This document shows, in pieces, positions 6,906 through 56,830 of a DNA stretch of 64,000 nt. The stretch spans positions 124,001-188,000 of the forward strand of contig NZ_FRBF01000005.1 of assembly GCF_900142545.1 (NCBI RefSeq). The letters are read 5' to 3'. The position numbers and the translations under genes were made by a program. The notes under the pieces are model-generated. The model did no database searches, was not told the DNA's origin, and saw only the letters and a program-made list of their open reading frames with translations. This DNA is from Fibrobacter sp. UWT2 (GTDB lineage: Bacteria > Fibrobacterota > Fibrobacteria > Fibrobacterales > Fibrobacteraceae). Numbering within the stretch: the first letter of the stretch is position 1; every line of letters begins with the position of its first letter.

Positions 6906-6938
6906 AGTAGACAGTAGGAAGTAGGAAGTAGACAGTGG
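6905..6938. repeat. Family A heptamer array (cimA-hisD gap)
   Basis: Array of GTAGACA, GTAGGAA, GTAGGAA and GTAGACA heptamers ending GTGG, read on the plus strand. It occupies almost the whole gap between the cimA stop (6946) and the hisD start (6905). Transcribed from the minus strand it becomes a CUUCCUAC-type leader directly before the hisD ATG. Confidence 0.85.
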
Positions 6939-6945
6939 TTTGTGA

Positions 6946-8637
6946 TTAGAGACCTGCGGCGCGTTTCACTTGGCGTTTCGTTAATTTCTTTTGCTTCGCC
7001 GGAGCAGGTTCCTCTTTGGGCTTGGCCGGTTCAACAGGCTTCACGTCCAGATGCTTGTAAGCACCTTCGATGACCTTGTTGTCCACCAGAATCTTGTAGG
7101 TGAGGCCATCCACAAAAGCCATCCAAGATGCTTCGATGATGTTGCTCGAAACACCGACCACGTTCCAGTAGCCCTTTTCGTCGCCGAAGGTCGTCCACAC
7201 GCGAACCGTCGCGTCAGAAGCAACCTTGCTTCCGAGCACGCGCACCTTATAGTCGTCGAGCTTGACCTTCGCCATGTTCGGGAAGAACGGGAGCAGCGCC
7301 TTACGGAGAGCCGCATCCAAAGCGTTCACCGGGCCGTCACCTTCGCTCACCTGATGGCTAATCTTGTCGCCAATCTGGAGCTTGACTGTCGCCTGCGACA
7401 CCGAAACGCCCTGCGGCGTCTTGTCTTCGATGACGCGGTAGTTCAGCACCTTGAACGGTTCCTTGACCATTCCCAAGTGGCGGTACACGAGCATCTTGAA
7501 GCTTGCTTCGGCGCTGTCGAAATGCCAGCCGGCGTTTTCGCGTTCCTTGATGAGCGAAAGCAGACTTGCCACCACCGGGTCCTTCTTGTCGATGCCCGGC
7601 TTAATGGCCTTAAGTTTTTCCACAACGAGAGAGCCGCCGGCCTGGTCACTGGTGACGAACACGCGGTCGTTACCGACGGCGTGCGGGTCGATGTGTTCAA
7701 AGCTGCGGGACACCTTCATCACACCGTCGATGTGAGCGCCGCCCTTATGGGCAAAGGCTGCATCGCCAACGTACGGGGCGTGAGCATCGCTCGGCAAGTT
7801 CACAATCTGGTCCACGTTGCTGCTCAACTGACGAAGGCGAGCAATCTTTTTAGCAGCGAAGAACTTCGCACCCATTTTGAAGTGGAGGTCGGCAGCGATG
7901 GTCGTGAGGTTTGCGTTACCGCAACGTTCACCGTAACCGTTCACCACGCCCTGCACCATAGTCGCACCGCTCTTCACGGCATAAATGCTGTTGCACACGC
8001 CAAGGCCGGCATCGTTATGCACATGAATACCGATAGGTGTAGAAACATGCTTCTTCACGTCCTTCACGATTTCTTCGAGTTCCCACGGCATGGTTCCGCC
8101 GTTGGTGTCGCAAAGCACGATAAAGTCGGCATGGCCGAGTTCTGCAGCCTTGAGTGTTTCCAAGGCGTACTGCGGATTGGCCTTGTAGCCGTCAAAGAAA
8201 TGTTCCGCATCGTAAATCACCTCTTCGGAATGTTCCTTGAGGTACGCCACCGAAGACTCGATCATGTCGAGGTTTTCTTCGAGGGTCGTGCGAATCACGT
8301 CGGTCACGTGCAAGTCCCAGCTCTTGCCGAAAATCGTCTTGACCGGAGCGCCAGACTTAACGAGAGCCTGCAGCAGCGGGTCCTTTTCGGGGAGCACCTT
8401 GGGGCGACGCGTCGAACCGAAGGCAGCAATCTTCGCATGCTTCAGCTTGACTTCCTTAATCTTCTGGAAGAATTCTTCGTCGGTGGGGTTGCTGGGGTTC
8501 GGCCAGCCGCCTTCGATGTAGTCAAAGCCGAAATGGTCCAGAATACGTGCAATCTGCAGCTTGTCTGCAAGAGAAAGACTGATTTTACGGTCCTGGTTAC
8601 CGTCGCGGAGAGTCGTGTCGTAGAGAAAAACTTTCAT
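6946..8637 (-). CDS. cimA: (R)-citramalate synthase
   Basis: HMGL-like Claisen-condensation enzyme of 563 residues predicted to join pyruvate and acetyl-CoA to citramalate, the entry to the threonine-independent isoleucine route. N-terminal LYDTTLRDGNQ and YIEGGWPNPSNPTDEEFF are the CimA form of the 2-isopropylmalate synthase signature. The metal-binding HVHNDAGLGVCNS and GYGERCGNANL follow. The C-terminal LeuA-type regulatory dimer domain (about 400-530) suggests isoleucine feedback. The protein ends in a Lys/Pro/Ala tail (EPAPAKQKKLTKRQVKR) not typical of the family. The distinction from LeuA rests on the N-terminal GGWP-type motif. It is 9 bp downstream of the BY-kinase stop-start junction and is probably transcribed with hisD. 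Confidence 0.9.
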   Translation of the reverse strand: MKVFLYDTTLRDGNQDRKISLSLADKLQIARILDHFGFDYIEGGWPNPSNPTDEEFFQKIKEVKLKHAKIAAFGSTRRPKVLPEKDPLLQALVKSGAPVKTIFGKSWDLHVTDVIRTTLEENLDMIESSVAYLKEHSEEVIYDAEHFFDGYKANPQYALETLKAAELGHADFIVLCDTNGGTMPWELEEIVKDVKKHVSTPIGIHVHNDAGLGVCNSIYAVKSGATMVQGVVNGYGERCGNANLTTIAADLHFKMGAKFFAAKKIARLRQLSSNVDQIVNLPSDAHAPYVGDAAFAHKGGAHIDGVMKVSRSFEHIDPHAVGNDRVFVTSDQAGGSLVVEKLKAIKPGIDKKDPVVASLLSLIKERENAGWHFDSAEASFKMLVYRHLGMVKEPFKVLNYRVIEDKTPQGVSVSQATVKLQIGDKISHQVSEGDGPVNALDAALRKALLPFFPNMAKVKLDDYKVRVLGSKVASDATVRVWTTFGDEKGYWNVVGVSSNIIEASWMAFVDGLTYKILVDNKVIEGAYKHLDVKPVEPAKPKEEPAPAKQKKLTKRQVKRAAGL

Positions 8638-11546: not shown

Positions 11547-11593
11547 TGTGTTAACCTCTTGGGTTTAGTGTTGAAAATTCGGGACTAAAGATA

Positions 11594-11631
11594 GTAAAAA
11601 GTAGGAAGTAGACAGTAGGCAGTAGACAGTA
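11594..11631. repeat. Family A heptamer array (clpC-adk gap)
   Basis: GTAGGAA, GTAGACA, GTAGGCA and GTAGACA heptamers in series on the plus strand, ending one or two bases from the clpC stop codon. Confidence 0.8.
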
Positions 11632-14859: not shown

Positions 14860-16099
14860 GTCTAATCGCCCCCACCGGATCCAAGCGGCTAGCCTTCCAT
14901 GCCGGCAACAAAGTCGCCAGAACGCAAAGCGCAATGCCAATTACAAAAATCAAAATCACGTCAAGAATATGCACCGAAATCGGGAAGTACGGAATCACGT
15001 AGACATCGCCCGGCAGCTTGATAAAGTGGTAAGCCTCTTGCAACTTGCAAAGCACCAAGCCAATCGTACCGCCGACAATCGTACCGCCCACGCCAATGAA
15101 GCTTCCCATGAGCATAAAGACGCGCATAATGCCCGCCTTGCTAAAGCCCATGCTGCGGAGGATGCCGATTTCCTTGGTCTTGTCGATAACGACCATGATC
15201 AAGCTACTGATGATATTGAATGCCGCAACCAGAATGATGAGGCAAATCACCGCCGCCACGATGAACTTTTCGTAGTTCATCCACTTGAGGAGCGTGATGT
15301 TTTTCGTCTTCCAGTCCATGGCGTAATACGGGTAACCGAGCCAAGTGGCAAGGCTATCCACCGCTTCGCCGGCGAGCCAGTGATTGTTCAGGCGGAACTG
15401 GATGCCTGTCACGACATCTTCAAGGCCAAGCAACTTCTGGAGTTCCGGAATGCCCACATAAGCGAGGTTGCCGTCGTATTCGTAAGTACCCGTTTCAAAG
15501 ATGCCGCTCACCACGCACATCATCATCTTCGGGCCGCCGCTGCTGACCATGGCGTCCGGGCTCTGGAAAGTCTGCAGCACCAGCTTGTCGCCGACCACCA
15601 CACGGAGCCTATTGGCAAGGCCGGAACCCAAGATGATTCCAGGGCGACGAGTTCCGCTCAAGTCTTCGAGGCTGTCGACCGAGTAGTTACCCCACTTGAT
15701 GTACTTGTGGATGTCGGTGACGCCCTTGGCGGTTTCTGCATCAATACCGTAAATGACGATGCCGTCGTTTACCTTCTTGGAGCTCACGCCCACCTTGTAA
15801 ATAATGAACGGGGACGAGGCCACCACGCGAGAATCGCGATCGCGGACTTCTTTGGTGAGGCTGTCATACGGCGCAATGAATTCGCCATTGTAAGCCATCA
15901 CTTCGAAGTGAGCGTCTTTGCCAATCATCTGGGCGGTGACTTCTTCTTCGAAACCATTCACTGCAGCAAGCGCCACCACCAGCGCGAACACGCCAATGGA
16001 GACACCCAGCATACTAAAAATGCCAATCAGCGAAACAAAGAGGCTTTTGCGTTGAGCCCCTAAGTAACGCCAGGCGATGAGCCACTCAAGTTTATTCAT
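14852..16099 (-). CDS. lolC: Lipoprotein-release permease LolC/LolE
   Basis: Inner-membrane subunit (415 residues, normal length) of the LolCDE complex. N-terminal WLIAWRYLGAQRKSLFVSLIGIFSMLGVSIG is the classic LolC/E start followed by TM1. A large periplasmic domain (about 50-270) and three C-terminal TM helices of the FtsX type (IVAAVICLIILVAAFNIISSL onward) follow, with a DKTKEIGILRSMG cytoplasmic loop. Only one permease gene is present, so it may act as a homodimer (LolF-like arrangement) unless a second lies elsewhere. The ATG abuts a family A array with no recognisable ribosome-binding site. Confidence 0.92.
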   Translation of the reverse strand: MNKLEWLIAWRYLGAQRKSLFVSLIGIFSMLGVSIGVFALVVALAAVNGFEEEVTAQMIGKDAHFEVMAYNGEFIAPYDSLTKEVRDRDSRVVASSPFIIYKVGVSSKKVNDGIVIYGIDAETAKGVTDIHKYIKWGNYSVDSLEDLSGTRRPGIILGSGLANRLRVVVGDKLVLQTFQSPDAMVSSGGPKMMMCVVSGIFETGTYEYDGNLAYVGIPELQKLLGLEDVVTGIQFRLNNHWLAGEAVDSLATWLGYPYYAMDWKTKNITLLKWMNYEKFIVAAVICLIILVAAFNIISSLIMVVIDKTKEIGILRSMGFSKAGIMRVFMLMGSFIGVGGTIVGGTIGLVLCKLQEAYHFIKLPGDVYVIPYFPISVHILDVILIFVIGIALCVLATLLPAWKASRLDPVGAIRHE

Positions 16100-16134
16100 A
16101 GGAAGTAGGAAGTAGGAAGTAGGAAGTAGGAAGA
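16100..16134. repeat. Family A heptamer array, left side of S23-type gene
   Basis: Five consecutive GGAAGTA-phase heptamers on the plus strand, touching the lolC/E start codon on one side and the end of the S23-type gene on the other. The copy at 16501-16540 is in the opposite orientation. Confidence 0.88.
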
Positions 16135-16136
16135 CC

Positions 16137-16505
16137 CTACGTCCAATCCTTCGTTCCCAATTTTCTCCTCAAGGCGGTTAACATTTTTCCAATATCGTCA
16201 AGTGACTTTTTTATCGATTCCGTCTCAGACGATTTCAAAAGGTTCACTCGTTCACTCAAAACAATTTGCGTTTCTAATTCCGACTTAGAACCAAGGGCAA
16301 TTCCTAAAAAATGCGAAAATTCATTTTTTGATTTACGACCTTCTCCTTCTGCAATATTACTCGCAATTGATACTGCAGCACGTCGCATTTGAGAGGTCAA
16401 ACCAAACATTTCATCTTTAGAAAATGCACTTGTAAGACGATAAGTTTCAACAGCAACATCCATTGCTTGTTGCCAAACAATCAGGTCTCTGTATCCTTGT
16501 GTCAC
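16137..16505 (-). CDS. Four-helix-bundle protein, S23 / 23S rRNA intervening-sequence family
   Basis: A 122-residue protein with the characteristic family text: YRDLIVWQQAMDVAVETYRLT, FGLTSQMRRAAVSIASNIAEG, the SEFSHFLGIALGS-like stretch and ELETQIVLSE. Family members occur inside intervening sequences of 23S rRNA genes and as stand-alone genes; the Avd protein of diversity-generating retroelements has a related fold. Function here is unknown. The start is a GTG. Both the GTG and its purine-rich ribosome-binding site (GGAAG) are contributed by the flanking repeat. The gene looks more AT-rich than lolC/E and lysS beside it and lies exactly between two inverted family A arrays, so it may be a mobile passenger. 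No reverse transcriptase or variable repeat pair is visible nearby. Confidence 0.85.
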   Translation of the reverse strand: MTQGYRDLIVWQQAMDVAVETYRLTSAFSKDEMFGLTSQMRRAAVSIASNIAEGEGRKSKNEFSHFLGIALGSKSELETQIVLSERVNLLKSSETESIKKSLDDIGKMLTALRRKLGTKDWT

Positions 16506-16540
16506 TGTCTACTTCCTACCGTCTACTGTCTACTAGCTAG
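16501..16540. repeat. Family A heptamer array, right side of S23-type gene (inverted)
   Basis: Reads on the minus strand as GTAGACA, GTAGACG, GTAGGAA, GTAGACA, GTG, so it is inverted relative to the array at 16100. It ends in a small palindrome, GCTAGGCTTCGCCTAGC (16536-16552), which contains the lysS stop codon. Confidence 0.85.
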
Positions 16541-16547
16541 GCTTCGC

Positions 16548-18056
16548 CTAGCAGCTTTCGGGCTTCATCAGCGGGAAGAGCTGCACGTCGCGGATGGTCT
16601 GCTGGTTGGTGAGGAGCATGACCATGCGGTCGATGCCGAATCCCACGCCACCGGTAGGCGGCAAGCCAGATTCGATGGCGTGCATGAAGTTTTCGTCCAT
16701 CGGGTGAGTTTCACCTTCGCCACCGCGGCCGCGGCGCACCTGGTCTTCCAGGAGCTCACGCTGACGGATGGGGTCGTTAAGTTCGGTATAGGCGTTACCC
16801 AGTTCCCATCCGTTAGCGTACGGCTCGAACTGTTCGATAAGGCCTTCGATGGTACGGTGCTTCTTGCAGAGCGGAGTACTTTCGGTCGGCATGTCCTTGA
16901 TGAACGTCGGCTGGATGAGCTTGTCTTCCACGGTAAGCTCGAACAGTTCGAGGATACCGCGGCCGCGGCTGAATTCGCCGTCCAGGTGTCCGCCCAGTTC
17001 TTCCATCTTGGCCTTGATTTCGTCGTCGCTCATTTCATTGACCTTGAGGCCGCCGAACTTTTCGATGGCTTCAATCATGCTGTAGCGGGGCCACGGAGCC
17101 TTGAAGTCGATTTCCTTACCCTGGTATTCAATCTTGGTGGTGCCGTTGGCGGCAATACAGGCGCGTTCGTAGATGTTTTCGAAGTGCACCATCATGTCGT
17201 TGTAGTCGGCATAGGCTTCGTAGAATTCGAGACCGGTGAATTCCGGGCTATGCGTACGGTCCATACCTTCGTTACGGAAGTTCTTGGAGAATTCGAAAAC
17301 CTTTTCCATGCCGCCCACGATGCAGCGCTTCAGGTAAAGTTCCGGAGCCACGCGCAGGTAAAGCGTCATGTCGCAAGCATTGTGGTGCGTAGTGAACGGA
17401 CGGGCGTTTGCACCGCCGTAAATCGGCTGGAGCGTCGGAGTTTCGACTTCGATAAATCCCTTTTCAATCAGGTATTCGCGGATAGCCTGCAGAATCTTGA
17501 AGCGCTTGATGAACACGTCCTTCACATCGTCGTTCAAAGCCATGTCGATATAGCGCTGGCGGTAACGGGTATCCACGTCGGCAAATTCGTTGAACACGAC
17601 CTTGTTGCCGTTTTCGTTGACCTTTTCCTTAGCGACCGGAAGCGGACGCACGGCCTTCGAAAGCATGGTCACCTTCTTCACGTGCACGGAGTATTCACCC
17701 GTCTGAGTTTCGAACATGGAACCGTTCACGCCGATAAAGTCACCGAGGTCGGTCATCTTCACGACTTCGTAGTTTTCTTCGCCCACTTCGTCACGGGCAA
17801 CCACCACCTGCAAGCGACCATAACGGTCCTTGAGGTGCATAAAGCACATTTTGCCCTTGCGGTTAAAGCGAACCACGCGGCCAGCGAAAGCGATTTCTTC
17901 GCCAGAAGCCATCAGGGCTTCCTTATTTTCTTTCAAAACCTTGGAATCATGCGTGCGGTTGAACTTGTGCGGATAAGCTTCCACACCCATTTCCTTAAAC
18001 TTGTCAAGCTTCGCGAGGCGAGCCTGCACCTGGTCATTCATGTCTTGCATTGCCAT
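16548..18056 (-). CDS. lysS: Lysyl-tRNA synthetase, class II
   Basis: Charges tRNA-Lys; 502 residues, standard length. An N-terminal OB-fold anticodon-binding domain (about 60-150, FAGRVVRFNRKGKMCFMHL) is followed by the class II core. Motif 2 is FRNEGMDRTHSPEFTGLEFYEAYADY-type text and motif 3 is GFGIDRMVMLLT. The ATG at 18056 (MAMQDMNDQ) fits; a second Met two codons later is an alternative. The stop codon lies within a short palindrome next to the inverted family A array that borders the S23-type gene. Confidence 0.97.
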   Translation of the reverse strand: MAMQDMNDQVQARLAKLDKFKEMGVEAYPHKFNRTHDSKVLKENKEALMASGEEIAFAGRVVRFNRKGKMCFMHLKDRYGRLQVVVARDEVGEENYEVVKMTDLGDFIGVNGSMFETQTGEYSVHVKKVTMLSKAVRPLPVAKEKVNENGNKVVFNEFADVDTRYRQRYIDMALNDDVKDVFIKRFKILQAIREYLIEKGFIEVETPTLQPIYGGANARPFTTHHNACDMTLYLRVAPELYLKRCIVGGMEKVFEFSKNFRNEGMDRTHSPEFTGLEFYEAYADYNDMMVHFENIYERACIAANGTTKIEYQGKEIDFKAPWPRYSMIEAIEKFGGLKVNEMSDDEIKAKMEELGGHLDGEFSRGRGILELFELTVEDKLIQPTFIKDMPTESTPLCKKHRTIEGLIEQFEPYANGWELGNAYTELNDPIRQRELLEDQVRRGRGGEGETHPMDENFMHAIESGLPPTGGVGFGIDRMVMLLTNQQTIRDVQLFPLMKPESC

Positions 18057-18113: not shown

Positions 18114-18190
18114 GTAGGAAGTAGGAAGTAGGAAGTAGGAAGGACTCAGCGCCAATTACTGTCTACTGCCTACTGTCTACCGTCTACTGC
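18114..18190. repeat. Opposed pair of family A arrays (potential cruciform)
   Basis: Four GTAGGAA heptamers at 18114-18143, a 14-bp centre, then the reverse-complement type (ACTGTCTACTGCCTACTGTC...) at 18158-18190. The two arms are partly complementary, so a large hairpin could form. It lies between the lysS start and the stop of the SprT-like gene. Confidence 0.8.
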
Positions 18191-33884: not shown

Positions 33885-34843
33885 TAATTAAAATCCCGTT
33901 CGATTTGTTCGAGGCCTTCGGCCCATTCGGCTTGGATTTTCTGTTTGAGTTTCTTGGCGAGCGAAGGAGCGCGGCCCTGCGTAGAGACCGTTACGGCGAT
34001 ATTTTCGCCGAAATCCATACGGGCGGGCACAATGAAATCGCCGTCGAGGTAGTCGCAGGCGTTATTCACCAGAATGCGGCGGGCGCGAGCATCGTTGCTG
34101 ACCTGGGCGTTGACTGCAGGCTGGTCGGTGCAGATGAAGACCATGAAAATGCCGCGGAGATCGAGCGGCTCGTAGGGGCGATTAATCAGGGTTACGAGGC
34201 TTGAGGTTTGAGGTCGGGCTTCGCCCTTTGAGGAAAGACTTTCGAATTCCGGATCAAACTGCGGGGCGACTACGGTAATGCGGGCGCCCGTAGGCAAAAG
34301 CGTCTTCACCTTGCGAAGAGCAATACGGCCACCGCCTACCACCAACACATTCTTGCCTTCGAGATTCAATTCGATGGAGAAGAGGTTTGGTTTAGACGAG
34401 AGGGGAGAGGCGAGAGACGAGAGATTATTCTGACAAGACTCATTTTCTTTCGTCTTTCGTCTGTAGCCCGCATCAGCGGGCGTTCTCTCGTCTATTTGCG
34501 CGTTACGGACTCCGGCGACGACCATGTCGGCAAATTCTTTCCAGTCGCCAAGGCAAGGCAAAAGCGTAATCGGAATCTGCGGAAATTCCGCCTGCAAGTG
34601 CGCCACAACCTTAGGCACATCGTTCTTGGTATGCTGACCATTCAGCAGCAAGTACGGCAAAAGCGTCACCGATTCCACATCTTCGCGCAAGAGCGTGCGC
34701 AAGTCATTTTCCAAATCCAACAGACTCGTACTTGCCACGCGCGTACCGGGCAAATCATGGTGCAGTTTATCCATGATTTCTTCGAAGCCTTTATAGGCCC
34801 CCGGCAGAATGCAGTGATGCGCGATAATCAGGATAGCTTTCAT
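33884..34843 (-). CDS. CbiK/CbiX-type chelatase fused to precorrin-2 dehydrogenase (siroheme synthesis)
   Basis: A 319-residue fusion. Residues 1-115 resemble the anaerobic sirohydrochlorin chelatases (IIAHHCILPGAYKGFEE; LLPYLLLNGQHTKNDVPK, with the metal-site His in GQHTKND). Residues about 155-319 are a Met8/CysG-N-type dehydrogenase with NAD-site GKNVLVVGGGRIALRKV and VNNACDYLDGDFIVPA. Together they would oxidise precorrin-2 to sirohydrochlorin and insert iron. The linker (about 116-150) and a loop in the dehydrogenase domain (SLSSKGEARPQTSSLV) are encoded by family C and B repeats. The cobA-hemD gene lies just upstream. The ATG is preceded by a family A array, not a clear ribosome-binding site. 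The order chelatase-dehydrogenase is unusual compared with CysG. Confidence 0.82.
   Translation of the reverse strand: MKAILIIAHHCILPGAYKGFEEIMDKLHHDLPGTRVASTSLLDLENDLRTLLREDVESVTLLPYLLLNGQHTKNDVPKVVAHLQAEFPQIPITLLPCLGDWKEFADMVVAGVRNAQIDERTPADAGYRRKTKENESCQNNLSSLASPLSSKPNLFSIELNLEGKNVLVVGGGRIALRKVKTLLPTGARITVVAPQFDPEFESLSSKGEARPQTSSLVTLINRPYEPLDLRGIFMVFICTDQPAVNAQVSNDARARRILVNNACDYLDGDFIVPARMDFGENIAVTVSTQGRAPSLAKKLKQKIQAEWAEGLEQIERDFN
34197..34237. repeat. Family B repeat inside CbiK-Met8 coding sequence
   Basis: TTGAGGT, TTGAGGT, C, hairpin GGGCTTCGCCC (34217-34227), TTTGAGG on the plus strand. Translated in frame on the minus strand. Confidence 0.82.
34392..34493. repeat. Family C repeat, inverted pair within CbiK-Met8 coding sequence
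   Basis: TAGACGAGAG... and GAGAGACGAGAGA at 34392-34422; the complementary TTTCGTCTTTCGTCT and CTCTCGTCTA at 34445-34493, with a GCCCGC-ATCA-GCGGGC hairpin (34465-34480) between the latter two. It encodes the linker between the two enzyme domains. Confidence 0.75.
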
Positions 34844-34847
34844 AGGG

Positions 34848-34885
34848 GTAGTAGGAAGTTGGAAGTAGGAAGTAGGAAGTAGACA
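34848..34885. repeat. Family A heptamer array (cobA-hemD to CbiK-Met8 gap)
   Basis: GTAGGAA, GTTGGAA, GTAGGAA, GTAGGAA, GTAGACA heptamers on the plus strand, filling the 60-bp gap and ending about 4 bp from the CbiK-Met8 ATG. Confidence 0.85.
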
Positions 34886-34903
34886 GTGGTTAGTGGTTGG
34901 TGA

Positions 34904-36424
34904 TTAGGATTCTTTAGTGTAGAATTCGACGATTTTTTTGACGAGGGAATCCATCGTGGTTTCGTCGGAAGTGACGGTTTCAAAACCATGCTTCTGGGCT
35001 GCTGATTCTGTCATGCGACCAATGCAGAAACTTAGACGAGAGACGAGAGACGAAAGACGAGAGACTTGTACAAAGTTCTCGACGGCGCTGGTGCTGGCGA
35101 AGACGATTGCATCAGCAGATTCAACAGCTTCGCGCTTCCATTCAGGGAGTTCAGCGACCGGGAGCGTTTCGTAAACGACCCAGCGGTTTGCCTGCGGTAA
35201 AAGTTTCAGCAAGGTGTCGTCGGCGAGATTACCCTGCAAGAGAAGGATACGAGGTGTGAGGTGTGAGGTCGCACCTTCGGTGCTTTGAGGTATGAGCGAA
35301 GCCAACAGTTTTCCGAGGCCTTCGCCGGTATGGTCTTCGGGCACGTAATCGCAGCGGATGCCATATTCCAGCAATTTCTTTTCAGTAATCTTCCCCACGC
35401 TTGCAATCTTCTTGCCGGCAAGAACGCGGATGTCATTGCCCGAGGCAAGCAACTGCGTAAAGAAAGATTCAACACCGTTCGTGCTTGTGAAAGCGAGTAC
35501 GTCAAAGTTCGCGAGGTCAGCCCAATTGAACGAGCCCTCAACTGCACGCGTTTCAATCATCGGAGTCTCGATGACTTCGGCACCGAGGGCCGTGAGGCGG
35601 GCTGTAATCCCGCTGGCCTGCTTAGCGGCGCGAGTCACCACCAGGCGCTTGCCCGACAGCGGCAAATTCTTTTTCCAGGCGAGAGTCTTGCCGAGTTCAA
35701 CAACACCGCCCATAATCGTAATCGCGGGGGCTGTCACGTTTTCGCGAACAATCGTCTCCCCCGCCGTTTCAAGCGTCGCCATGACCGTACGCTGGTACGG
35801 CGTGGTTCCCTTTTCGATAAAGGCAAGCGGTGTTTTCGGATCCTTGCCGCATTCCACAAGGCGCTTGGCGATAAAGTCCATATTGGCAATGCCCATCAAG
35901 AAAATGAGGGTGCCCTGGCACTTCGCGAGATTTTCAAAGTCGAGAGAGAGTTCGCCGTTCGACTCAGCCTTTTCGTGGCCCGTGATAATGTGGAAACTTG
36001 TCGCAATGCCGCGATGGCTTACGGGAATGCCCGCATAAGCTGGCACCGAAATGGCCGAGGTAATGCCCGGCACCACATCAAATTCAACGCCAGCCGCCAC
36101 CAGTTCCAAAGCTTCTTCGCCACCGCGCCCGAATACGAACGGGTCGCCACCCTTGAGGCGCGCAATAATACCCTGCGGGTACTCCTGCGCAAACTGCACC
36201 AGAAGCTTGTTGATTTCGGACTGTTTCACCTTGTGGTGCGTCGGCATTTTGCCCACGTCGACCATCTTCGCCTTCGAATTGCACATTCCGAGAATCGCCG
36301 GAGAAACTAGGCGGTCGTACACCACCACGTCGGCGCGTTCCAGAATTTCTTTTCCGCGAATCGTCAAGAGTCCCGGATCGCCAGGACCTGCACCAATCAA
36401 GTAAACATGACCAAAATTCGCCAT
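34904..36424 (-). CDS. cobA-hemD: Uroporphyrinogen-III C-methyltransferase / uroporphyrinogen-III synthase fusion
   Basis: A 506-residue bifunctional enzyme. Residues 1-245 are the SUMT domain: GAGPGDPGLLTIRGKEILERAD-type text, VVYDRLVSP, RLKGGDPFVFGRGGEEA, VVPGITSAISVPAYAGIPVSHRG, LMGIANM. It makes precorrin-2 with SAM. Residues about 255-506 are a HemD domain closing the tetrapyrrole ring (LVVTRAAKQASGITARL, FTSTNGVESFF, VFASTSAVENFV). Two in-frame repeats enlarge the HemD part: a family B copy (SLIPQSTEGATSHLTPR) and a family C copy (VSRLSSLVSRLSF). With the CbiK-Met8 gene downstream, uroporphyrinogen-to-siroheme conversion is complete. hemC is not in the window. Confidence 0.94.
   Translation of the reverse strand: MANFGHVYLIGAGPGDPGLLTIRGKEILERADVVVYDRLVSPAILGMCNSKAKMVDVGKMPTHHKVKQSEINKLLVQFAQEYPQGIIARLKGGDPFVFGRGGEEALELVAAGVEFDVVPGITSAISVPAYAGIPVSHRGIATSFHIITGHEKAESNGELSLDFENLAKCQGTLIFLMGIANMDFIAKRLVECGKDPKTPLAFIEKGTTPYQRTVMATLETAGETIVRENVTAPAITIMGGVVELGKTLAWKKNLPLSGKRLVVTRAAKQASGITARLTALGAEVIETPMIETRAVEGSFNWADLANFDVLAFTSTNGVESFFTQLLASGNDIRVLAGKKIASVGKITEKKLLEYGIRCDYVPEDHTGEGLGKLLASLIPQSTEGATSHLTPRILLLQGNLADDTLLKLLPQANRWVVYETLPVAELPEWKREAVESADAIVFASTSAVENFVQVSRLSSLVSRLSFCIGRMTESAAQKHGFETVTSDETTMDSLVKKIVEFYTKES
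35032..35066. repeat. Family C heptamers inside hemD domain
   Basis: GACGAGA, GACGAGA, GACGAAA, GACGAGA, GAC in perfect 7-bp phase. Translated on the minus strand as VSRLSSLVSRLSF. Confidence 0.85.
35251..35303. repeat. Family B repeat inside hemD domain
   Basis: GAGGTGTGAGGTGTGAGGTC, hairpin GCACCTTCGGTGC (35271-35283), TTTGAGGTATGAG, then GCGAAGC. Translated in frame on the minus strand as SLIPQSTEGATSHLTPR. Confidence 0.85.
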
Positions 36425-40549: not shown

Positions 40550-40558
40550 GAACTAGTT

Positions 40559-40584
40559 AGAAGTAGGAAGTTGGAAGTAGGAAG
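40559..40584. repeat. Family A heptamer array (exbD-tonB gap)
   Basis: GAAGTAG-phase heptamers with two GTTGGAA-type variants (GTAGGAA, GTTGGAA, GTAGGAA, GTT) between the exbD stop and the tonB start. Confidence 0.78.
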
Positions 40585-40989
40585 TTACTCCTCCTTATTG
40601 GCCGAAATGGAGACCTTGCGGACTTTGGCGAGGTTGCATTCATCGAGAATGTCAACGACGACTCCGTTAGGGGCGTCGCGGTCGCTCACGATAATCACCG
40701 GGCGGTCAGGAGCTTCTGCCATCATCTGGCGGAGCACCGTATTCAACGTCGACAAGTTCACCTGCGTTTCGTTAATGTGAATCGTTCCTTGGCGAGTCAC
40801 ACCAATCAAGATGCTTTCCTTAGCCAGTTCCTTGGCAGAGCTAGCCTTGGGCTTTGTCACATCTACGCCGGTTTCACGGGTAAAGGTCGAAGTCACAATA
40901 AAGAAGATGAGCAAGATAAACACCATGTCGAGCATCGGCGACACGTCTACCCTACCGGCTTCCTGTGAACGTTTACGAATAAAACTCAT
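40585..40989 (-). CDS. exbD: ExbD/TolR-type transport protein
   Basis: A 134-residue protein with a single N-terminal TM helix (VDVSPMLDMVFILLIFFIVTSTF) containing the functional Asp in MLDMVF, and a periplasmic ExbD/TolR domain. It forms the proton channel with ExbB and energises TonB. It overlaps exbB by 4 bp (ATGA). The context (TtpC-like, exbB, exbD, tonB, TPR) identifies the TonB2-type arrangement and argues against a TolR role. Confidence 0.93.
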   Translation of the reverse strand: MSFIRKRSQEAGRVDVSPMLDMVFILLIFFIVTSTFTRETGVDVTKPKASSAKELAKESILIGVTRQGTIHINETQVNLSTLNTVLRQMMAEAPDRPVIIVSDRDAPNGVVVDILDECNLAKVRKVSISANKEE

Positions 40990-41643: not shown

Positions 41644-43161
41644 TTAGTCTTCCTTGACCGATTCGTTAATCCAAAGGGCGTTCAACACCGCAAGGCCTGC
41701 AGCTTCCATGCGGCCACGCAAAGCATCGGCGCGGTTCGTAAGGAAGGTGTGCAACAGCTGCAGCGGAATGGCAACAATCAAGCCCGCTTCCGTCGTCACG
41801 AGGGCGATGGAAATACCGCCAGCCAAAAGCTTCGGGTCAGAAGTGCCATGCATGGTAATGACATCGAAAAGTTCGATCATACCCATCACGGTACCCAAAA
41901 GGCCAAGCAGCGGAGCCGTTGCCGCAAACACGGAAATCCAGGAAAGTCCCATTTCAATCTTCGGGGATTCCGCAGCAAAAACTTCTTCCAGGGCCTTCTC
42001 GGCAGAAGCGCGATTGGCGTAATTCTTGCCCAGCACCGTGCGCAGCACCTTGCCCACCTTACCGTGGAGTTTCGAAGTCAGGCTGCGAGCCATAGCCACA
42101 TCGCCCTTTTCCAAGGCCTTAATGCAACGCCTGGTAGAAAGTCCACCAAAGCCGGCGATCACCAACCAGATGAGGCGCCACAGCACAATCAAGAGACCGA
42201 GGCCGAAAAGCGTCGCGATGGGATACATCAGAATACCGCCATTCTTGAAGAACACCTTGAGGTCATCCTTCCAGGTGGTTTCCTGGTGGTTCGCCATTTC
42301 AGAAGAAAGTTCCGTACTCAAGAGTACATCTACCGGCACCATGACGTAGGCGGAATCTTTCGCTCCGGCAAAAGCCTTGCTGATTTCAGACTTCGTATCG
42401 GGAGTCAAGTTTTCTTGCCAGCTGAACACGCGCTTCTTTTCGCCAGCTACCGGAAGCATCAATGCCGCCGGATGCAAGCCGTTGATATCGACGGCGTTTG
42501 CCATCTGCATGGCATAGAGGCCACCCAAACGCATACGGTCACCCTGGGCGACAGAAGAACCGAACACCAGTTCAGCCTTCTCTACACCGCTTTCGCGAGT
42601 GAATTCCATTTCGGAGCGGGCTGCGTTCAAAATCGATTGAGCAATGCGCAGGGGATCGTCCCTGTACAGGCCCATTTCCTTTTTCACCTTGTTCTGCACT
42701 TCGATGCGGTCAGCCACCTTGAAGGGGATTCCCTGTTCGGTGAACTTCGCAAGCGTTTCGAGGCGTTCCGGACCGGCGGCAAGCGACAAGTATTCAGCGC
42801 GGGCCTTTTCAGCCTGCAGCTTCACCTGGGCCAAGTCTTCACGGGCAACGCGCACGTCTTCGAAAAGGCGGGCACGTTCCGACATCAAGGCGTCCACCTT
42901 TTCCTTGCTTTCGTTGTACTTTTCGTTAAAGAGTTCGCGTTCCTGGTTGGCGGTTTCGCGGTCCTTCCAACGGGCAGCTACAGCCATATCGCGCTTCTTG
43001 CGGGCTTCTTCGAGGTCTGCCTTCGCGCTGTTCAATGCAGCACGCTTCTTCACGGCATCGACATCCGCATTCTGCTGGGCATAAGAGAGCGGCGCCAACA
43101 CAGCGAGAGAGGCTATGAAAACGAGAGACGAGAGACGAGAGACGAAAGATTCGAATTTCAT
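41644..43161 (-). CDS. TtpC-like protein: ExbB-type channel with long periplasmic coiled coil
   Basis: A 505-residue protein. Signal peptide (FIASLAVLAPLSYAQ), a periplasmic coiled coil (about 28-130, KADLEEARKKRDMAVAARW), a beta/alpha region to about 270, TM near 280-310 (GGILMYPIATLFGLGLLIVLWRLIWLV), and a C-terminal MotA/TolQ/ExbB module with ISVFAATAPLLGLLGTVMGMIELF and SIALVTTEAGLIVAIPLQLLHTFL. This architecture matches TtpC of Vibrio TonB2 systems, a third channel-like subunit needed for TonB2 function there. The first residues (ESFVSRLSSLV) are encoded by a family C repeat. It abuts the DUF3450 gene with no gap. Confidence 0.87.
   Translation of the reverse strand: MKFESFVSRLSSLVFIASLAVLAPLSYAQQNADVDAVKKRAALNSAKADLEEARKKRDMAVAARWKDRETANQERELFNEKYNESKEKVDALMSERARLFEDVRVAREDLAQVKLQAEKARAEYLSLAAGPERLETLAKFTEQGIPFKVADRIEVQNKVKKEMGLYRDDPLRIAQSILNAARSEMEFTRESGVEKAELVFGSSVAQGDRMRLGGLYAMQMANAVDINGLHPAALMLPVAGEKKRVFSWQENLTPDTKSEISKAFAGAKDSAYVMVPVDVLLSTELSSEMANHQETTWKDDLKVFFKNGGILMYPIATLFGLGLLIVLWRLIWLVIAGFGGLSTRRCIKALEKGDVAMARSLTSKLHGKVGKVLRTVLGKNYANRASAEKALEEVFAAESPKIEMGLSWISVFAATAPLLGLLGTVMGMIELFDVITMHGTSDPKLLAGGISIALVTTEAGLIVAIPLQLLHTFLTNRADALRGRMEAAGLAVLNALWINESVKED
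43121..43150. repeat. Family C heptamers in the TtpC-like signal peptide
   Basis: ACGAGAG repeated three times followed by ACGAAAG, at the 5' end of the TtpC-like gene. Translated on the minus strand as FVSRLSSLV, the n-region of the signal peptide. The same peptide occurs in the HemD domain. Confidence 0.82.
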
Positions 43162-48187: not shown

Positions 48188-50305
48188 ATGAGAAAGCTGT
48201 TTGCCGCATTATGCCTAATGTCCATGCCGGTCCTCGCACAGGTCGGCATCGTAAGGTCTACCAGCGGCATTCACGCGCCTTCGGCAAAAACGAATCCTCA
48301 AGGCTACCTGTACGTTTCGGGCGCATTCGAAATGGCCAGCGACGGAAACACCTTGAGCATGAGCGACGGCTACACCGATTCTAAAGGAAACTTTACCGAA
48401 CTCGACAACAACACGCCCTCTAACGACGAAACCTTTTTCGTGAGTTTCGCCGTTTTGGACAACCTGGAACTGGGATTTTCGTTACCGGTTCACTACGAAG
48501 GCCAAATCAACAATACGAACCTGGACGGAATGGGCCTCGGAGACCTGCAGCTGTCCGCCAAGGGCTCGATCCCTGTCAACGAATGGTTCAATTTGGGTAT
48601 CAGCGGCGAAATCCTGTTTCCCACGGGTTCCACGGAAAAGGGATTCCGCCCCAGGCACCGCTGGTATATCAAGAGTGACAACAGCGCCTACGCCTTCACC
48701 GCCAACAACGCGGCCACCAACATCAACGTCCACTTTTCGTTCGACTGGAGACATTACCTGGTTTTCAACGGCTACACCGGCATCTTGAACGATCTCCAGG
48801 ATAAGGACAAATACTTCCTCTGGGGTGCCGGCTTCAACGTATTCCCCGAAAAGACCATCACGCTCATTCTCGAAGCTTCTGGCGAAACGCCCTTCCGTTC
48901 TACCCGCTGGGGCGACCATTTCTTGAACAGCCCCTTCAGAATCACCCCCGGCCTGCGTGTCAATCTCCCCCGTCAAAGCTACCTGACTATTTCGGGTGAT
49001 ATCGGCTTCCATTACTTCAAGGAGCTGGACACCGAAGACGCCTTGCAAGTCAACCTGAAATCTGGCGGAGAAAGCATCTATTACCCCATGGCAGGTTCAC
49101 CTGAATTGGGTATCGCCATTACCTTGAGCAAGATTTTCGACTTCAGCTGGGGCGACGACGACCACGACGGCGTTATCGACCGCAAGGACATGTGCCCGAA
49201 CACCTTCAAGGGACAAGTCGTCAACCCCCGCGGATGCCCCGTGGACGAAGACTTGGATGGTGTCCTGAACATTGTAGACCAATGCCCCGCTACACCGATG
49301 GGACTGGCAGTGGACTACAACGGTTGCCCCCTGGACCATGACGGCGACGGCGTGGCAGACTACTTGGATAAATGCCCCAATACCACAGCAGGCTTTGCCG
49401 TAGATTCCATCGGCTGTACCTTGGACACCGATGGCGACGGTATTGACGACAACAACGACAAGTGTAACGACTCGCCCAAAGACGAGCCCGTCGGAAAAGA
49501 CGGCTGCCCGCTGGACCAGGACCACGACGGCATTACCAACGACTTGGACCAATGCCCCGACACTCCCGAAGGCATCTCTATCGACAAGCACGGTTGCCCG
49601 CTGGACTTTGACGGCGACGGCGTCCCCGACGATCTGGACAAGTGCCCCAACAGTAAGCTCGGCGAACAAGTCGGCGAATCGGGCTGTCCCCTGGATTCCG
49701 ACAAAGACGGAGTTCCCGACACCAAGGACGAATGTGCCGACACTCCCGAAGGCGTCTTGGTCAATATTCTCGGTTGCCGCATAGACCAAGACAGTGACGG
49801 AATCTTTGACGAAGAAGACAAGTGCCCGGGCACCCCCGAAGGCGCCCCCATCGACAGCTTGGGCTGTCCGCTGGATTCTGACGGCGACGGTATTGCGGAC
49901 TGGGCGGACCAATGCCCCGGCACCCAAGCGCAGGCAACCATCGACGATTCCGGCTGCCCCACCAACCCCAGGCAGAACTTCAACGTATTCGCCAAGCAAA
50001 TCCACTTCAAGGGCCATGACACGCTACTGGTGAATTCCAGCTACACCGCCTTGAACGACATCGTGTACCACATGCGACAATACCCGGTGAATCTGGAAAT
50101 CCAGTGCGCCGCCAGCGACGCCTCTGGCGAAAACGCCAACCGCATTTCTACCGAACGCGCCCAATTCATCTACAACTACCTGGTAAAGAAGGGCATCAGC
50201 AAGGATCGCCTCAAGTACCAAGGTTTCGGCAAGAAACTGCCGCCCACCCTCATCCAGAAGAACGGCAGCACGGACGCTGTCAGGTTTATTCCTAGTAGAC
50301 AGTAG
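48188..50305 (+). CDS. OmpA-family outer-membrane protein with thrombospondin type 3 repeats
   Basis: A 705-residue protein with signal peptide (RKLFAALCLMSMPVLAQ), a beta-barrel of about 290 residues, nine calcium-binding TSP3 repeats (about 320-590) and a C-terminal OmpA peptidoglycan-binding domain (about 595-705). Repeat cores include DHDGVIDRKDMCP, DGDGVADYLDKCP and DSDGIFDEEDKCP. The OmpA domain has NRISTERAQFIYNYLVKKGI and FGKKLP. The last codons (PSRQ) and the TAG stop are read from a family A array, so the original C-terminus was probably a few residues different. Such proteins tether the outer membrane to peptidoglycan and are abundant surface proteins. It is followed by slyD. Confidence 0.92.
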   Translation: MRKLFAALCLMSMPVLAQVGIVRSTSGIHAPSAKTNPQGYLYVSGAFEMASDGNTLSMSDGYTDSKGNFTELDNNTPSNDETFFVSFAVLDNLELGFSLPVHYEGQINNTNLDGMGLGDLQLSAKGSIPVNEWFNLGISGEILFPTGSTEKGFRPRHRWYIKSDNSAYAFTANNAATNINVHFSFDWRHYLVFNGYTGILNDLQDKDKYFLWGAGFNVFPEKTITLILEASGETPFRSTRWGDHFLNSPFRITPGLRVNLPRQSYLTISGDIGFHYFKELDTEDALQVNLKSGGESIYYPMAGSPELGIAITLSKIFDFSWGDDDHDGVIDRKDMCPNTFKGQVVNPRGCPVDEDLDGVLNIVDQCPATPMGLAVDYNGCPLDHDGDGVADYLDKCPNTTAGFAVDSIGCTLDTDGDGIDDNNDKCNDSPKDEPVGKDGCPLDQDHDGITNDLDQCPDTPEGISIDKHGCPLDFDGDGVPDDLDKCPNSKLGEQVGESGCPLDSDKDGVPDTKDECADTPEGVLVNILGCRIDQDSDGIFDEEDKCPGTPEGAPIDSLGCPLDSDGDGIADWADQCPGTQAQATIDDSGCPTNPRQNFNVFAKQIHFKGHDTLLVNSSYTALNDIVYHMRQYPVNLEIQCAASDASGENANRISTERAQFIYNYLVKKGISKDRLKYQGFGKKLPPTLIQKNGSTDAVRFIPSRQ

Positions 50306-50325
50306 GAAGTAGGAAGTAGGAAGTA
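50293..50325. repeat. Family A array supplying an OmpA stop codon
   Basis: TAGTAGACAGTAGGAAGTAGG heptamers in the plus (coding) orientation. The codons AGT-AGA-CAG-TAG end the OmpA-TSP3 protein. Confidence 0.85.
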
Positions 50326-56803: not shown

Positions 56804-56830
56804 TGTAGTAGACAGTAGGAAGTTGGAAGG
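56804..56830. repeat. Family A heptamer array (upstream of trhP)
   Basis: GTAGTAGACAGTAGGAAGTTGG heptamers touching the trhP ATG on one side; the stop of the Wzi-like gene lies about 16 bp beyond the other side. Confidence 0.8.

Follow-up and report, generated by a model that had tools for sequence, protein, structure and literature searches.

S23 four-helix-bundle genes and their inverted heptamer arrays as a putative genetic element mobile without a transposase

The gene for an S23-type four-helix-bundle protein and the two inverted arrays of 7-bp repeats that flank it probably constitute one genetic element, 5'-(AGN5)n - S23 - (N5CT)n-3', in which S23 would act as the specificity protein and which would be mobile without a transposase; a probability of roughly 70% is assigned to this reading. 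Comparison between genomes shows, as far as sequence evidence reaches, that gene and arrays form a unit, that the repeats are cognate to the protein, that the unit has inserted at new places and spread, and that the protein is under purifying selection. The locus from which the analysis starts lies between lysS and lolC in the window, i.e., the whole analysed stretch of 64,000 nucleotides from Fibrobacter sp. UWT2 (genome G000), and comprises the following features:

16137-16505, minus strand: S23 / 23S rRNA-IVP four-helix-bundle gene (PF05635, TIGR02436), 369 bp, 122 aa, GTG start
16504-16539, minus strand: 5' array in gene sense, AG type, GTAGACA-like, carrying the S23 ribosome-binding site and start codon
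16099-16133, minus strand: 3' array in gene sense, CT type, (CTTCCTA)x5, adjoining the lolC ATG
16536-16552, minus strand: mini-hairpin GCTAGGC-GAA-GCCTAGC, formed by fold-back across the lysS stop codon at the outer element edge, part of the RNA fold

Read on the plus strand, the left array consists of 5.0 copies of TAGGAAG with 100% matches (16099-16133), and the right array of about five units of a degenerate TGTCTAC (16500-16539). The two are mutually inverted, with a left/right profile similarity of 0.74, and in gene sense the element runs from an AG-type array through S23, the only gene inside it, to a CT-type array. While the right array extends into the GTG start of S23, with AGGAAG spaced as a ribosome-binding site, the left array meets the lolC start codon, CTTCCT being followed directly by ATG. 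These observations bear out an earlier note on this DNA, which had placed the gene directly between inverted arrays, had traced its GTG start and ribosome-binding site to the right array, and had described it as more AT-rich than its neighbours (GC 0.388 vs 0.532 for lolC and 0.543 for lysS); genus-wide, S23 genes average 36.6% GC vs 53.1% in their flanks. RNA of the element is predicted to fold with its arms paired (z = -4.8). The window contains 14 arrays at lag 7, whereas lags 4, 5, 8, 10, 11 and 13 yield no array, and this excess, together with that at the genus loci described below, argues against a chance origin of the window arrays. As a side observation, the 3' end of lysS is repeated inversely round a GCGAAGC-type loop beside the first heptamer (window 16536-16552; relatives L063, L058, L035 and L094), for example as GAGAGCTGCTAG-GCGAAGC-CTAGCTGCTCTC; such fold-backs in several genomes hint at hairpin-primed copying, as a lead only.

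The window protein belongs to the S23 / 23S rRNA-IVP family, with matches above the curated cut-offs of both Pfam 23S_rRNA_IVP (PF05635; 7.8e-39, 132.6 bits vs 33.8) and TIGR02436 (3e-37, 127.2 bits vs 24). Its PDB relatives are 2gsc and 2rld, both with five chains per entry. Matches to Avd models are weak and below cut-off (NF033474, 30.2 bits vs 80; bAvd, 27.3 vs 40), and its domain-profile matches include neither a Y1 domain nor any catalytic domain. Since the median dN/dS lies between 0.06 and 0.15 across six S23 clades of the genus (0.11 in the clade of the window protein), the protein appears to be kept by purifying selection.

Arrays of period 7 accompany S23 genes far beyond this locus. 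Among 80 genomes of the genus, 53 carry at least one S23 gene (PF05635; about 100 genes in all), and arrays with differing heptamers flank nearly all of these genes, including most of a divergent S23 class. At 75-76 genus loci the mean lag-7 flank score is 16.1 on the upstream side and 16.8 on the downstream side; the remaining lags between 3 and 13 give 3.3-5.7, and lag 7 measured 650 nt away gives 3.4-3.8. With an array called at a threshold of 9 on the best lag-7 self-match, period-7 arrays flank 73 of 91 Fibrobacter loci on both sides and 89 of 91 on one side or both. A sample of 78 non-Fibrobacter loci from many phyla, obtained by profile search of genome contigs, has arrays on both sides at 51 loci and on at least one side at 65. 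Mean lag-7 scores there are 21.3 and 18.4, whereas other lags score 5-8 and control positions 5.1 and 6.5. A further 40 S23 genes, lower in the score list and from other genomes, are flanked on both sides in 26 cases and on one side in 4, and about a quarter of the genes sampled at this depth (10 of 40) have no array on either side. Period 7 is also found at 11 of 12 plasmid loci, the twelfth having period 8, and at most S23 loci on viral contigs; phage records gave no S23 match. Array flanking of S23 is a strong rule, not a law. The median array holds about 4.6-4.7 units. Some genomes are rich in S23 genes (25 in G120, 17 in G129 and 16 in G110), a number of them lying on one contig a few kilobases apart.

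The two arrays of a locus correspond to each other in inverted orientation. When the right array is reverse-complemented and compared with its own left array, similarity reaches 0.716 in the genus vs 0.496 after permutation (sd 0.0115), 0.681 vs 0.459 outside it, and 0.711 vs 0.478 at the 40 further loci; in direct orientation there is no excess similarity. The common unit is AGNNNNN, with A at 0.83-0.89, G at 0.77-0.87 and the other five positions variable. The 91 genus loci sort into 16 sites and 10 protein clusters, and comparison of sites and clusters shows the heptamer to follow the S23 clade, not the genomic site. A single clade retains its heptamer at several sites (GACGAGA at two, an AATGTG type at three, a TATGAA type at three), and heptamers at one site differ when the clades there differ. 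Between sites, heptamer similarity is 0.61 within a clade vs 0.46 between different clades (permutation p = 0.0005), and the value for different clades at the same site (0.475) is close to background. At subfamily level, an AG core accompanies S23 of the NIAEG type and an AAT core that of the SIGAN type: AG:AAT ratios are 67:1 vs 4:14 in the genus and 73:7 vs 3:8 outside Fibrobacter (p = 1e-5, somewhat optimistic because some of these loci come from the same genomes).

The earlier note had proposed that gene and arrays are one mobile unit, a proposal that could be checked against array-less S23 genes elsewhere in the genome and against conservation of the order lolC-S23-lysS. No array-less S23 gene exists in G000, whose only PF05635 gene is that of the window, and the order is not conserved. 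The lysS-lolC gap measures 3-6 bp, with no unit, in 17 genomes, 24 bp with an array-like remnant in four, 54 and 100 bp with a gene-less array pair in two, and 441-512 bp in the remaining genomes, where it is filled by S23 genes of three clades. G004 and G000 share 98% identity in lolC, yet the gap of G004 is 6 bp. Conserved gene order was accordingly rejected as the cause of the arrays, given the 17 genomes with a gap of 3-6 bp. Elsewhere in the window, arrays of this kind occur without an S23 gene:

18114-18189, no strand assigned: gene-less copy of AG array, 14-nt spacer and CT array of the same heptamer type
6906-6952, plus strand: single AGTAGGA-type array between genes
11589-11631, plus strand: single AGTAGGA-type array
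34398-34462, no strand assigned: gene-less AG..CT pair, GACGAGA type, left/right similarity 0.74
34847-34905, plus strand: array of AGTAGGA, then AGTGGTT units
40555-40587, plus strand: single array
50294-50325, plus strand: single AGTAGGA array
56807-56829, plus strand: single AGTAGGA-type array

Several of these copies are polymorphic among relatives. The gene-less pair at 18114-18189 is present in G040 and G044 and absent from G004, G077 and G079; the array at 6906-6952 is base-for-base identical in G044 and absent from G004, G077 and G017. Four relatives have an AATGTG-type pair in place of the array at 11589-11631, and the place of 40555-40587 holds a full AG..CT pair in G044 and a 9-bp gap in G004, G077 and G079. 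An array similar to that at 50294-50325 occurs in G044, with none in G004, G077 or G040, and the array at 56807 varies in unit number, spanning 23, 65 and 100 bp in G000, G040 and G044, and is absent from G004 and G077. The unit of the pair at 34398-34462, GACGAGA, is the heptamer carried by a different Fibrobacter S23 clade (p3). A target-site duplication was not definable, the filled and empty sites being too diverged to judge. In addition, G040 and G079 carry another interspersed repeat (TCATTCTGAGCGAAG... / ...CTCGCTCAGGATGACAA) in place of the array at 6906-6952, this gap being an apparent hot spot for repeats of several kinds. Dense arrays of GAGGTTT, GACGAGA and GAGGTGT, heptamers of other S23 clades of the genus, occupy 34196-35269 and 43117-43149; the matching S23 genes are missing from G000, and these arrays are perhaps relics of lost units. 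Two identical S23 copies on Calothrix plasmids were considered as a transposition pair and rejected, the adjacent integrase genes being common to both.

Copy numbers across whole genomes follow the heptamer of the resident S23. Matches to the doubled heptamer average 58.7 in genomes with an AGTAGGA-flanked S23 vs 5.8 in all others (p = 8e-8) and, for AGTGGTT, 17.1 with a matching S23 vs 3.9 in others (p = 1e-4), these p-values overstating the evidence because the genus genomes are related and because overlapping matches within an array were counted separately and the S23 locus was included. On the same count, AGTAGGA averages 8.4 in other S23-bearing genomes, S23-free genomes average 1.8 (AGTAGGA) and 1.1 (AGTGGTT), and G000 has 45 matches. 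In the Bacteroidota, AGTATTG arrays away from the S23 locus occur in 3 of 4 genomes with an AGTATTG S23 vs 1 of 22 others, self-hits being identified by position where contig and coordinates permit; the corresponding test for GAGATNT gave weak coupling, the hits in L164 and L165 apparently being the S23 locus alone. Some period-7 arrays are present in S23-free genomes too (G046). Together with the empty sites, the polymorphic gene-less copies and the heptamer kept by a clade across sites, this co-amplification lends support to the mobile unit proposed earlier. The further suggestion that the protein may act on the repeats or their RNA gains indirect support, from the subfamily-specific core and from genome-wide counts that match the S23 heptamer, the action itself remaining putative. 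In G000, single arrays are biased 26:4 towards one replication strand (GC skew; contigs C1, C2 and C5), and the bias is weaker in G005 (24:14, i.e., 24/38). The AG strand of these arrays lies mostly on the C-rich strand (26/30 in G000), as if replication-oriented.

S23 is codirectional with both neighbours at 72 of 85 loci. Where a site is occupied by different clades, these too are oriented alike, a pattern that fits a dependence on read-through transcription. On cyanobacterial plasmids (L358, L361 and L363) the order is cas6-S23-cas4, or S23 lies between cas10 and a cmr3-family gene; L363 has period-8 repeats in place of period 7. An association of S23 with CRISPR adaptation modules has been published (PMC10910872), and it may be that of a passenger, since S23 sits inside CRISPR operons of these plasmids. 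Partner enzymes were sought by domain profile. Neither reverse transcriptase (RVT_1, PF00078) nor Y1_Tnp (PF01797) has a match in G000, and both are likewise missing from G040, G044 and G059; an own reverse transcriptase or Y1 transposase was rejected as neither occurs in G000. Rfam gave no match in the window, and no 23S rRNA was found at the S23 loci checked with six rRNA motifs.

With regard to mechanism, S23 may recognise heptamers in register, perhaps with one unit per subunit. One report describes S23 proteins as having no known function and their solved relatives as pentamers (PMC4990558); with arrays of about 4.7 units and pentameric relatives, a match of one unit to each subunit suggests itself as a guess. 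The arms would pair as a hairpin in RNA or single-stranded DNA; S23 would mark this hairpin, and the host replication, repair or RNase III machinery might then copy the element into intergenic gaps that are transcribed. As S23 shows no catalytic domain, the role proposed for it is one of specificity and assistance, comparable to that of Avd, rather than that of a transposase. With RVT_1 and Y1_Tnp both lacking a match in G000, movement would depend on enzymes of the host or on another partner.

Other readings of the same data were weighed. An unlikely alternative is that S23 is a regulator with the arrays as its TRAP- or operator-like binding sites, controlling itself through the array that holds its ribosome-binding site, in which case arrays throughout the genome would be a regulon rather than mobile copies. 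Placement of the S23 ribosome-binding site and start within the upstream array would suit this reading, as would the subfamily-specific core and the arrays adjoining start codons such as that of lolC, a position also reported for TAACTGA arrays in Beggiatoaceae (PMC4679880, available text). However, the arrays form matched inverted pairs round the S23 gene, and they are missing at the same place in close relatives or swapped for other heptamer types, where a regulon would be expected to retain its sites. Greater doubt attaches to movement of the units by a host reverse transcriptase or Y1 (RAYT/IS200-type) transposase, in which S23 would be a passenger or a helper similar to Avd. This finds some backing in the fold family common to S23 and Avd, in gene-less inverted pairs that resemble REPINs (PMC3116915) and in the 26:4 strand preference in G000. 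That genome nevertheless lacks RVT_1 and Y1_Tnp despite its 45 doubled-heptamer matches, as do G040, G044 and G059, though an enzyme may have been present earlier, and the strand bias falls to 24:14 in G005.

It is very improbable that the arrays are ordinary slippage repeats which S23 genes happen to occupy, with no functional tie to the protein. Slippage would account for the differing unit numbers of sister genomes and for the commonness of heptamer arrays, which occur both apart from S23 in a genome that carries it and in genomes devoid of S23, but not for a heptamer that tracks the S23 clade across sites and the subfamily across phyla, for left and right arrays that match each other, or for genome-wide counts that track the S23 heptamer. 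Simple sequence repeats without a partner were likewise rejected, as array sequence tracks S23 clade and subfamily. The reading preferred here, with S23 and its two arrays as one mobile element, can be extended: S23 proteins would be the specificity factors of phylum-spanning transposase-less elements with heptamer ends, each subfamily with its own code; most intergenic heptamer repeats of bacteria would be copies or relics of such elements, and S23-bearing intervening sequences (IVS) would be members that landed in rRNA. The chances of this wider proposal are judged to be about even, and S23 within 23S rRNA IVS is probably the same element in rRNA.

On these terms, S23 elements offer an origin for the 7-base repeats that are widespread in bacterial genomes and lack an explanation, and linking heptamers to S23 makes both testable. 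The data suggest that a four-helix-bundle family related to Avd may read tandem 7-mers by a subfamily code. Such elements would explain the presence of S23 in odd places, including rRNA, CRISPR operons and a ribonucleotide reductase locus, and they point to mobile DNA without a recognised enzyme.

Heptamer repeats have been described repeatedly, in the available texts as TAACTGA (PMC4679880), Xanthomonas GGGAATC and Nostoc GGGGAYT (PMC4692102), cyanobacterial STRR, and in a prokaryote-wide survey (PMC6344855) that ranks tandem heptamers as the most abundant intergenic tandem repeats across a wide variety of prokaryotes and sees 'no clear clue' to their function. Like S23 arrays, they are tandem, intergenic and at times arranged as convergent pairs (about 70 in Xanthomonas), and their function is reported as unknown; they differ in that none is linked to S23 genes in the available texts. 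None of the papers found by searching open-access text makes a general link between heptamer arrays and S23, and a mention elsewhere is possible. TAACTGA on its other strand fits AGN5 (PMC4679880, available text), which is a fit of sequence and not a test of membership.

The REPIN-RAYT system resembles the S23 element in its inverted short-repeat pairs, its many gene-less intergenic copies and its one related gene with the same flanking repeat (PMC3116915). Inverted pairs across intergenic DNA that match those beside the gene are found for S23 as well, which would make it an element that works like a REPIN rather than a member of that system: RAYT is a Y1 HUH transposase, whereas S23 has no Y1 domain, PF01797 has no match in G000, G040 or G044, and S23 is flanked by tandem heptamers where the other system has a REP hairpin. 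A related four-helix-bundle family is that of Avd from diversity-generating retroelements (PMC10053308; weak model matches). The window S23, however, falls under the Avd cut-off, and G000 is without reverse transcriptase. TRAP, the trp RNA-binding attenuation protein, is a ring oligomer and RNA regulator that binds evenly spaced AG-containing repeats. By analogy, it may illustrate how each subunit could take one repeat, set beside the pentameric S23 relatives (PMC4990558, available text) and arrays of 4.6-4.7 units; its fold, however, is unrelated to S23, it acts as an RNA regulator with neither inverted arrays nor mobile copies, and the binding by S23 is putative.

The closest parallel is the 23S rRNA IVS of Coxiella burnetii, for which the available text of PMC4990558 describes an S23p ORF, GACAGAT heptamers just upstream, a 28-bp terminal stem and RNase III cleavage. 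As in the window element, an S23 ORF lies between terminal inverted repeats with heptamers upstream; the 28-bp stem has the length of four heptamers, GACAGAT fits AGN5 (a likeness of sequence, not a membership test), and the IVS is called selfish (PMC4990558, same text). In contrast, the Coxiella IVS sits inside 23S rRNA at one position, its ORF is said to be decaying whereas genus S23 is under purifying selection, and that text describes neither copies without the gene nor a heptamer code nor spread between genes. The window element itself lies between lysS and lolC, not inside a 23S rRNA gene, and its terminal inverted repeats could pair into a stem round the ORF. To our knowledge, no element class described so far combines ends made of heptamer arrays and gene-less copies with a four-helix-bundle protein that is not an enzyme, and for this reason the S23 element class is regarded as new. 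The rRNA IVS is its nearest kind and would then be a special case of the S23 element.
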